64,000 nt of DNA, taken from positions 62,001 through 126,000 of the forward strand of contig NZ_FNIT01000008.1 in assembly GCF_900104035.1 (NCBI RefSeq). The letters run 5' to 3'. Below are positions 818 to 2,920 of the stretch, piece after piece. The notes below the pieces were generated by a model. That model did no database searches. It was given only the letters and a program-made list of their open reading frames with translations, and was not told the origin of the DNA. Within the stretch, counting starts at the first letter, position 1. Every line of letters starts with the position of its first letter. Origin of the DNA: Aureimonas jatrophae. Lineage in GTDB: Bacteria; Pseudomonadota; Alphaproteobacteria; Rhizobiales; Rhizobiaceae. The position numbers were made by a program, and so were the translations under genes.

Positions 818-2920
818 ATGAGCCGCAGCGCCGTCGCCGTTCGGAGCCCGACCGAGGACCAGCGCCGCCGCCAGCTGGTGGACGCGACGATCCAGTCGCT
901 CGCCGAGATCGGCTTCTCGGCCTCCAGCCTGGCGGAGATCGCGGGGCGGGCCGGCGTCGCGCCCTCGCTCGTCGCCCACTACTTCGGCGACAAGGACGGC
1001 CTCCTGGAGGCCACGCTGCGCCATCTGGCCCGCCGCATCTCGGATGCCGCCCGTCTACGACTGCGCCGGGCGGAGGGACCGCGCGAGCGCATCCAGGCGG
1101 TGATCGACGCCAACCTCGCGGCCGAGGAGTTCGACGCGCGGACCTGCGCCGTTTGGCTCGCCTTCTGGGGGCAGGTGCCGCATTCCGCCCGACTGAAGCG
1201 CGTCCAGCGCGTGTATCAGCGACGCATGCTGTCCAACCTCGTCTTCGACCTACGCAGCCTGGTCGCGCCCGAGGAGGCGCCGCGCATCGCGCAGGCGATC
1301 GCCGCGATCATCGACGGGTTGTGGCTGCGCGCCTCGCTGGCCGAGGTCGCCGAAACCGACAGCCTAGCCGCGCGCGCCACGGCCTCCGCCTTCACGGATG
1401 CCCAGATTGCGGGCGCCGTACCTCGGCGCGCCGACCGTCCGCGACGCGCGGCACCGGGGCTTCGCCTCCTGACGAGCCATGTGGGCGGTGCCTACATCGA
1501 TGCGGGACGCGAGCCGCAGGTCTTCCAGACGCTCAATCCGGCTACCGGCGAGGTGCTGGCCGAGATCGCGGTGGCGGACGCCGCCGTGGTCGACCATGCG
1601 GTCGCGACGGCCGCCGAGGCGCAGCGCGGATGGGGAGCGATGACCGGCGCCGAGCGCGGTCGTATCCTTCAACGTGTCGCCGCGCGGCTGCGCGAACGCA
1701 ACGACGAACTGGCCGTCCTGGAGGCGCGCGACACCGGCAAACCGATCGCCGAGACGTCCACGGTGGACGTCCTGTCGGGCGCCGACTGCATCGAGTTCTT
1801 CGCCGGAATGGCGGCCGGACTGTCGGGCGACCACGTCGATCTCGGACCGCTCGCCTTCGGCTACACGCGACGCGAGCCGCTCGGCGTCGTCGCCGGTATC
1901 GGTGCCTGGAACTATCCGCTCCAGATCGCCTGCTGGAAGGCGGCGCCCGCGCTGGCCGCCGGCAACAGCGTCGTCTTCAAACCGGCCGAGCTGACGCCGC
2001 TGACCGCGCTCAAGCTCGCCGAGATCATGGACGAGTGCGGTCTGCCGCGGGGCGTCTTCAACGTCGTCCAGGGCGACGGCTCGACCGGCCGCCTCCTGTC
2101 GCGCCACCCCGGCATCGCCAAGATCTCGCTGACCGGCGAGGTCGGCACCGGCAAGGCCGTGATGCGCGATGCCAGCGCGACGCTGAAGCAGGTGACGCTG
2201 GAGCTCGGCGGAAAGTCGCCGCTCGTCGTGTTCGCCGACGCCGATCTCGACGACGCGGTGGGCGGCGCGATGCTCGCCAACTTCTATTCCGCCGGCGAGG
2301 TCTGCTCCAACGGAACGCGCGTCTTCGTGCACGAGTCGGTTCGCGCGGCCTTTCTGGAGAAGCTCGTCGCGCGCACGGTGGCGCTGCGCATCGGCGACCC
2401 GCTCGACCCCGAAACGCAGGTCGGCGCGCTGATCTCGGAGGCGCATATGCGCAAGGTCCTCTCCTACGTGGAGGAGGGCGTGCGCGAGGGCGCGAGGCTC
2501 CTGTGCGGCGGGACGCGCATGACGCAGGACGGGCTCGACGCCGGCTTCTTCGTTGCGCCCGCGATCTTCGACGGCTGCGACGATTCCATGCGCATCGTGC
2601 GCGAGGAGATCTTCGGCCCGGTGATGACGGTCCTCTCGTTCCGGGACGAGGAGGAGGTGATCGCGCGCGCCAACAGCACGCGCTTCGGTCTGGCGGCCGG
2701 CGTCTTCACGCGCGATCTCGCCCGCGCGCACCGCGTCGTGGCCCGGCTCGAGGCCGGCACGACCTGGATCAACACCTACAACATCACGCCGATCGAGCTG
2801 CCCTTCGGCGGTGCCAAGGAGTCCGGTCTCGGGCGCGAGAACGGACGCGCGGCGCTGGAGGCCCACACGCAGGTCAAGAGCGTCTTCGTCAATCTCGGGC
2901 GTGTCGACGCCCCCTACTGA
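818..2920 (+). CDS. betI-betB: Fused choline-responsive repressor BetI and betaine aldehyde dehydrogenase BetB
   Basis: This single 700-residue frame covers two proteins that are normally separate. Residues about 11-195 are a complete BetI: a TetR-type helix-turn-helix (about 17-62, with the [21 protein letters not shown] recognition region) and a BetI C-terminal domain ending near DGLWLRASL (166-174). A basic, Pro-rich linker (about 196-215) leads directly into a full aldehyde dehydrogenase of about 480 residues. Its catalytic set is intact: Asn365 in GAWNYP, Glu462 in LELGGKSP and Cys496 in GEVCSNGT. BetB oxidises betaine aldehyde to glycine betaine with NAD(P). The start is fixed by AGGAGG at 804-809. 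Inside the junction the only in-frame GTG (1481) has no ribosome site, so BetB seems to be made only as part of the fusion. A lost stop codon or assembly artefact cannot be excluded. Confidence 0.88.

Follow-up and report, generated by a model that had tools for sequence, protein, structure and literature searches.

A BetI-type repressor and a betaine aldehyde dehydrogenase predicted to share one polypeptide in Aureimonas jatrophae and its relatives

Can the repressor of a choline operon and a betaine aldehyde dehydrogenase (BADH) of the same pathway be encoded as a single protein, and if so, are both halves complete, is the joined form conserved, and what might such a protein do? In Aureimonas jatrophae, these questions are raised by a gene near the start of a 64,000-nucleotide stretch of DNA (hereafter the window; G000:C11:62001-126000) within a 4.59 Mb genome of 25 contigs. 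The gene and its parts are as follows, with positions counted from the first base of the window.

804..810, forward strand: Shine-Dalgarno (SD) sequence AGGAGGT, 7 bases 5′ of the ATG, read from the sequence
818..2920, forward strand: fused betI-betB gene of 700 aa with an ATG start, from the open reading frame list, Pfam, NCBIfam and conservation
875..1012, forward strand: TetR_N DNA-binding domain (Pfam), residues 20-65
1079..1408, forward strand: BetI-type C-terminal domain TetR_C_6 (Pfam), residues 88-197
1409..1474, forward strand: interdomain linker, residues 198-219, with no start codon conserved there in Aureimonas
1475..2917, forward strand: betaine aldehyde dehydrogenase half, residues 220-700, from Pfam, NCBIfam and alignment
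1910..1912, forward strand: catalytic Asn365, invariant in 51 aligned fused proteins
1979..1981, forward strand: catalytic-site Lys388, likewise invariant in the 51
2201..2203, forward strand: catalytic Glu462, likewise invariant
2303..2305, forward strand: catalytic Cys496, likewise invariant

Each half could be assigned to its family. Residues 1-201 scored 208.9 bits with the BetI model TIGR03384 (cut-off 201.3), and the second half exceeded the cut-offs of two NCBIfam BADH models, with 765.5 bits for NF009725 over residues 220-700 (cut-off 593) and 672.5 bits for TIGR01804 (cut-off 668.6). The Pfam Aldedh match covers residues 234-689, and the window protein has all four of the residues Asn365, Lys388, Glu462 and Cys496, which have catalytic roles in aldehyde dehydrogenases (ALDHs). 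The preliminary description of this locus had proposed a full BetI and a full, catalytically intact BADH in one frame, and these scores and residues bear this out. The C-terminal domain of BetI has a role in ligand binding and dimer formation. An AlphaFold model of the monomer, built from 51 fused sequences, has nine helices in the BetI half, followed by the ALDH half (mean pLDDT 80.7, pTM 0.64); confidence was low in the linker (205-210) and, within the ALDH half, in residues 337-352, 492-497 (the Cys loop) and much of the C-terminus (648-700).

Long stop-free frames overlap the fused gene on both strands (window positions 811-3087 on the forward strand and 1364-3553 on the reverse strand), as a result of the GC content of 71%, and are not evidence of genes. 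Because a second frame is also open over the same 2.1 kb, the openness of the fused frame proves little, and we rejected it as proof by itself. The evidence for the fusion is instead its conservation within the genus. All 21 Aureimonas genomes were searched, and a stop-free fusion was present in 20 of them (71-100% identity). In these 20 no other BetI comes near the family cut-off, which the fusion itself exceeds in 17; the next best reaches 100.8 bits, in one genome. The single Aureimonas lacking the fusion, G018 (locus L039), scores no higher than 44.3 bits for BetI and has a different betB (58% identity) followed by betA, so that its fused locus looks as if it has been replaced.

The fusion extends well beyond the genus. 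When the best 80 of 278 loci from a scan of the genome collection were retained, 63 of the 80 had one stop-free frame across both halves; the closest named relative at the fused locus, among these 80, is Aureimonas sp. AU4 (94% identical). Named organisms with fused loci belong to Aureimonas, Ancylobacter, Methylobrevis, Faunimonas, Rhodomicrobium and Acidisoma and include a strain filed as Bosea sp. 117, and further fused loci occur in metagenome-assembled genomes (MAGs) labelled, as deposited, Caulobacterales, Steroidobacteraceae and Gammaproteobacteria, among others. Two Komagataeibacter plasmids also carry the fusion, annotated in RefSeq as one betB CDS. The architecture first described from the window alone thus recurs in related genomes with the same uninterrupted junction, and the arrangement that had been named as evidence against it, two genes at the locus in close relatives, is absent within the genus and seen only farther out. 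Three MAG copies (L110, L113 and L119) have a frame change between or inside the halves, which may be a true break or come from faulty assembly, and their pieces were read separately.

In even draws of genomes the fusion was uncommon, with full-length stop-free matches at E 1e-150 in 3 of 385 genomes of the class and 3 of 398 of the phylum; inspection of the draws added two short-linker fusions (L170 and L175). A survey of the order used the BetI part alone as query, and was thus not biased to the fusion. It returned a BetI at E 1e-25 or better in 168 of 397 genomes, and the 17 best of these (61-100% identity), our own among them, are each part of a frame of 673-781 aa that continues into an ALDH. 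The next matches belong to families f260 and f278, with 52-59% identity and frames of 219-280 aa. Twelve of their loci were examined; BetB was found next door in another frame at ten, and at two there was no BetB in the stretch examined.

The surroundings of the fused gene are those of a choline operon and include three further features.

758..777, no strand assigned: palindromic BetI-type operator candidate TTGATTGAACGAACAATCAA, 40 bases 5′ of the ATG, with 2 mismatches to the consensus
2981..4660, forward strand: betA, choline dehydrogenase, 60 bases 3′ of the fused gene (TIGR01810, 806.3 bits, cut-off 732.1)
1..490, reverse strand: ChoX-like gene, truncated by the start of the window, whose product would be the substrate-binding protein of a glycine betaine/choline ABC transporter (Pfam OpuAC over 2-490, 81.2 bits, cut-off 21.2)

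The site at 758-777 was scored against a presumed consensus of BetI operators, and it is predicted to place the operon under the repressor that the operon itself encodes. Taking the best site between 250 bases before and 60 bases after the chosen start, we found sites with six or fewer mismatches to this consensus in 62 of 78 fused loci, compared to 7 of 1560 mononucleotide shuffles. A scan of positions 480-2990 for sigma-70 promoters found none. Downstream, betA is present in 78 of 79 fused loci, and the remaining locus ends 2 bases past its match. The divergent OpuAC gene, which we presumptively name ChoX-like, is a probable second target of the repressor; among 94 loci (one place being counted twice), 72 have an upstream homologue in divergent orientation, in one it lies elsewhere, and it is missing from the stretch examined in 21, three of which have less than 420 bases upstream.

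Given this setting, we consider it probable that one polypeptide serves as both the choline-operon repressor and its BADH, and that it works as a self-limiting switch with two largely independent halves. In the absence of choline, the BetI half would bind the operator and repress its own gene, betA and the divergent gene, and choline would release it. BetA would then produce betaine aldehyde, which the fused ALDH half would oxidise to glycine betaine. Repressor and enzyme would necessarily be made one to one, so that induction would accumulate a large repressor pool, and because of this pool repression would be expected to return quickly once choline runs out, giving a self-limiting switch similar to that of PutA. 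The halves would act largely as independent modules, as suggested by two lineages in which the enzyme half has lost its catalytic residues while BetI has stayed conserved. According to a published study, choline derepresses BetI1, whereas in E. coli it stimulates formation of the BetI-DNA complex (PMC12442346), and the sign of the choline response may therefore vary between species.

The phylogeny of the BetI half bears on the age of the fusion. In a BetI tree of 122 rows, the 84 fused rows and the frame-broken MAG copy L110 form one side of a branch with support 96. When the order survey was added, the fused rows, L110, the rows whose ALDH half lacks catalytic residues (pseudo-ALDH, see below) and those with BetI alone formed one group (support 95), which the unfused f260/f278 rows adjoin (support 90). 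This enlarged tree has 149 rows and 144 different sequences, some having been met in two collections. Before alignment, L001 and four duplicates (L049-L052) were dropped, and before tree building we removed L109, L113 and L119, which are cut or frame-broken, as well as rows below 52% identity; the enlarged tree also leaves out more Stenotrophomonas near-duplicates, the long-branch L165 and two other rows. All trees are quick searches without bootstraps, with several long branches flagged. The BetB tree requires 6 changes between the fused and unfused states, 3 of them forced by well-supported branches, and a single clade of fused BetB rows was marginally rejected (p-AU 0.04). L106 and L175 join unfused rows in this tree, and the unfused L117/L142, L136 and L166, together with L110, fall inside the fused rows. 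The BetI halves of L106 and L175 group with the fused set and their BetB halves with unfused rows; partner exchange or a second fusion is possible for these two. Given the marginal rejection of a single fused BetB clade, partner exchange or fission may have occurred. Our claim of a single origin is therefore confined to the BetI half, for which one old fusion, with some later partner exchange or loss, is suggested as the simplest reading.

Nine genomes in two lineages, f16 and f200, carry a fusion whose ALDH half lacks the catalytic Asn and Cys (9 of 9) and, in 8 of 9, the Lys and Glu, and which is still in frame behind BetI. The loci are L197, L199, L205, L219, L221 and L223-L226, corresponding to G1128, G1058, G1105, G1097, G969, G930, G905, G1000 and G986. 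In f16, three of the 17 order-survey fusions (G1128, G1058 and G1105) have an ALDH half of 39-54% identity; G1058 is the one that retains Lys and Glu at positions 388 and 462, having lost Asn365 and Cys496. In f200, eight genomes have such a BetI: in six the frame spans 635-694 aa, and the other two keep BetI alone, in frames of 246 and 237 aa with no Pfam match to Aldedh. The segment that holds Glu462 is deleted in 8 of the 9 pseudo-ALDH forms. All nine halves are nevertheless matched by Aldedh (E 4e-43 to 2e-110) and free of stops, compared to 0 to 3.5% of codon-column shuffles for each, a result that counts for little case by case because in 4 of the 9 loci a second frame is also open. Pairwise dN/dS is 0.19-0.53 for the pseudo-ALDH halves and 0.01-0.18 for the BetI halves to which they are joined; the intact f16 fusions give 0.04-0.23 for the ALDH and 0.02-0.30 for BetI. 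Values below 1 in the pseudo-ALDH halves may in part reflect constraint older than the loss of catalysis.

The pathway context of these forms differs between the lineages. In G1128, G1058 and G1105 no betA reaches the cut-off (best scores 520-638 bits, cut-off 732), whereas their intact f16 sisters G1117 and G993 have one (847 and 837 bits); the other ALDHs listed for the three genomes reach about 43% identity. Seven of the eight f200 genomes have a separate betB (59-61% identity) and betA (at least 899.8 bits), and this separate betBA is nearby in five of the six pseudo-ALDH cases. The remaining f200 genome, G986, has neither gene; the ChoX-like gene is missing there too, and its operator site is poor, with 9 mismatches. 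Operator-like sites with 3-6 mismatches, counted without a shuffle control, were found at the other eight pseudo-ALDH loci. The ChoX-like gene is still divergent from the fusion at L219, L221, L223-L225 and, for G1128, G1058 and G1105, at L227-L229, which suggests that it is a remaining target of the repressor in these lineages. In the enlarged BetI tree, the f16 pseudo-ALDH rows are not set off from the intact rows as a single group, with weak support, so that the catalytic losses in f16 may have been one or several. Judging from these sequences, the ALDH half seems to have lost its catalytic residues where the enzyme was unneeded or replaced and to have stayed attached, and selection on BetI remained strong. 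Either relaxed decay or a newly acquired structural role would account for the pseudo-ALDH forms.

One alternative, which is compatible with the self-limiting switch and which we regard as possible if somewhat doubtful, is that the fusion arose neutrally by loss of a stop and that the joined form is harmless and of no functional benefit. Many unfused pairs already share a frame, separated by one to three stops, and the loss of catalytic residues from ALDH halves goes with the absence of betA or the presence of a separate betBA. The linker is also weakly constrained in Aureimonas, with a dN/dS of 0.72, compared to 0.12 for TetR_N, 0.24 for the rest of BetI, 0.52 for BetB residues 220-240 and 0.20 for the rest of BetB. 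However, one old group has stayed in frame through many changes of linker length, and L110 is its only frame-broken row in the trees, from which the frame-broken MAG copies L113 and L119 had been left out beforehand.

A second alternative is true allosteric coupling, in which DNA binding would be tuned by an ALDH half that responds to betaine aldehyde, NAD or its own oligomeric state. This too is compatible with the self-limiting switch, and we consider it unlikely. The preliminary description had raised such coupling, along with a placement of the enzyme at the nucleoid, as something that the fusion could bring about. It would be consistent with the selection on the pseudo-ALDH halves (dN/dS below 1) and with the BetI residues that track the fusion. 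Position 104 is Glu in 80 of 84 fused BetIs and Gln in 35 of 38 unfused ones, position 100 is Leu in all 84 and Phe in 35 of 38, and position 133 is Tyr in 83 of 84 and Asn in 27 of 38; the unfused sisters L131 and L139 have Leu100 and Tyr133 as in the fused proteins, but Gln104. That Glu104 and its companions mark a changed ligand pocket in the fused BetI is only a guess. Against coupling, BetI is strongly constrained in the very genes whose ALDH half is without catalytic residues and mostly without the Glu462 segment, operator-like sites (scored, as above, without a shuffle control) persist at eight of these nine loci, and two genomes retain BetI alone. Judging by the nine pseudo-ALDH fusions and the two BetI-only genomes, catalysis in the ALDH half seems dispensable for the function that holds BetI under strong selection. 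Both forms argue for modular function over obligate coupling, and coupling in the intact forms would be compatible with them. A bolder proposal, somewhat unlikely in our estimation, combines these elements: the fusions would be a previously undescribed family in which, in at least two lineages and in parallel, an active dehydrogenase is becoming a regulatory or scaffold domain of a TetR repressor, devoid of catalysis. Where the enzyme is intact, its half of the protein would relay the state of the pathway to operator binding.

The two halves might also part after transcription. Under this alternative, which we find quite improbable, the frame is continuous, but BetB is made mainly from an internal start by translational coupling, or the fusion is cleaved, giving separate BetI and BetB. 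The window itself offers little for an internal start. Between residue 190 and the NPAT motif, its single in-frame ATG, GTG or TTG is a GTG whose SD match spans 3 bases, in keeping with the earlier statement that no internal ribosome site is present. The linker had also been called short, basic and Pro-rich, which is accurate for the window (6 Arg, 3 Pro and 1 Asp in 22 residues) and does not carry over to relatives, in which the linker sequence is not conserved. Among 20 Aureimonas, no start-codon column is common to more than 6.

Across the fused loci, the picture is more varied. In-frame start codons occur near the junction in 75 of the 84. However, an ATG with an SD match of at least 4 near the BetB start was found in only 10 of 84 fused loci, compared to 30 of 38 unfused neighbours, of which 10 are Stenotrophomonas and so not independent. 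Four of those 10 fused loci have the ATG inside the end of BetI, four are three Acidisoma loci (L091, L098 and L103) and L097, and the others are L017 and L053. From reference residue 190 to the NPAT motif, 9 of 79 fused loci have no ATG, GTG or TTG at all and 53 of 79 have no ATG. For L066, L067 and many MAG copies, the alignment shows no BetB start, or none that can be recognised. In the Ancylobacter group (L053, L054, L056, L058-L067, L107 and L108), 10 of 15 loci have an internal ATG near the old BetB start with GGA nine bases 5′, and two more have another ATG there, so that 12 of 15 keep one. In the Acidisoma loci and in L097, an in-frame ATG near the old BetB start has AAGGA six bases 5′ of it. 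Because of these internal ATGs and SD-like sequences, a separate BetB could also be made in the Ancylobacter group, Acidisoma and L097, giving two products from one gene. The last alternative, an assembly or sequencing artefact such as a missed stop or indel at the junction, has a negligible chance of being correct and is rejected, as the same stop-free junction is found in 20 of the 21 genus genomes and RefSeq annotates the fused gene on two plasmids as one CDS.

One polypeptide with a repressor and an enzyme half can be compared to systems that are already known. The betIBA and betICBA operons have the same two protein families with betA as partner and differ in that betI and betB are separate genes, here replaced by one (PMC12442346). 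Among the best 50 of 1614 fold matches, the top PDB entry was 6wsa, a betaine aldehyde dehydrogenase of Burkholderia pseudomallei with 60% identity to the ALDH half and aligned catalytic residues; 6wsa differs in having no BetI half. No TetR protein was found among these best 50 of 1614, all of which have the ALDH fold. A literature search that covered mostly open-access journal papers found, among the titles and abstract openings listed, no description of the fusion and, among the papers covered, no use of the phrase “BetI-BetB”, and the main text of a survey of fusions (PMC4921024) does not contain the words betaine, choline or BetB. As judged from sequence, an ALDH half without catalytic residues, in frame behind a well-conserved BetI in two lineages, appears to be new. 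The two RefSeq plasmid records also serve as a warning for annotation, as they name the fused protein simply betaine-aldehyde dehydrogenase and thereby hide the repressor.

The fusion resembles the MocR/GabR regulators in that a DNA-binding domain is joined by a linker to a domain of enzyme fold (PMC6917764). They differ in their parts, MocR/GabR combining a winged helix with an effector-binding PLP aminotransferase fold and the fusion combining TetR with an ALDH whose catalytic residues are intact in most members seen. Pfam finds neither a GntR-type winged helix nor an aminotransferase fold here, and we rejected the identification of the fusion as a member of this family. By analogy, the pseudo-ALDH lineages resemble an early step along a MocR/GabR-like route. 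If this is true, they would offer a living series for the origin of regulators like MocR from enzyme-regulator fusions. Since the set spans unfused neighbours, intact fusions, dead-enzyme fusions and BetI alone, the role of the fusion in regulation can be tested by comparison.

To our knowledge, enzymes that double as the repressor of their own operon are few, and PutA is the classic example. In E. coli and S. typhimurium, as described in PMC5293562, trifunctional PutA has an N-terminal DNA-binding domain that makes it an autogenous repressor on the same chain as a catabolic enzyme that includes an aldehyde dehydrogenase, and in this the fusion is like it. The difference lies in the parts and the pathway: PutA is built from a ribbon-helix-helix domain and proline dehydrogenase, whereas the fusion relies on BetI, a TetR-family protein with a C-terminal domain of its own, includes no flavoenzyme (BetA being separate) and belongs to another pathway. 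Pfam finds only TetR_N, TetR_C_6 and Aldedh in the fused protein, which lacks a ribbon-helix-helix or proline dehydrogenase domain and therefore is not PutA itself. Our best reading of the sequence is that the fusion may be a PutA-like enzyme-autorepressor built of other domains. If true, this would be a second design, unrelated to PutA, in a common osmoprotection pathway of Alphaproteobacteria and of MAGs labelled Gammaproteobacteria.
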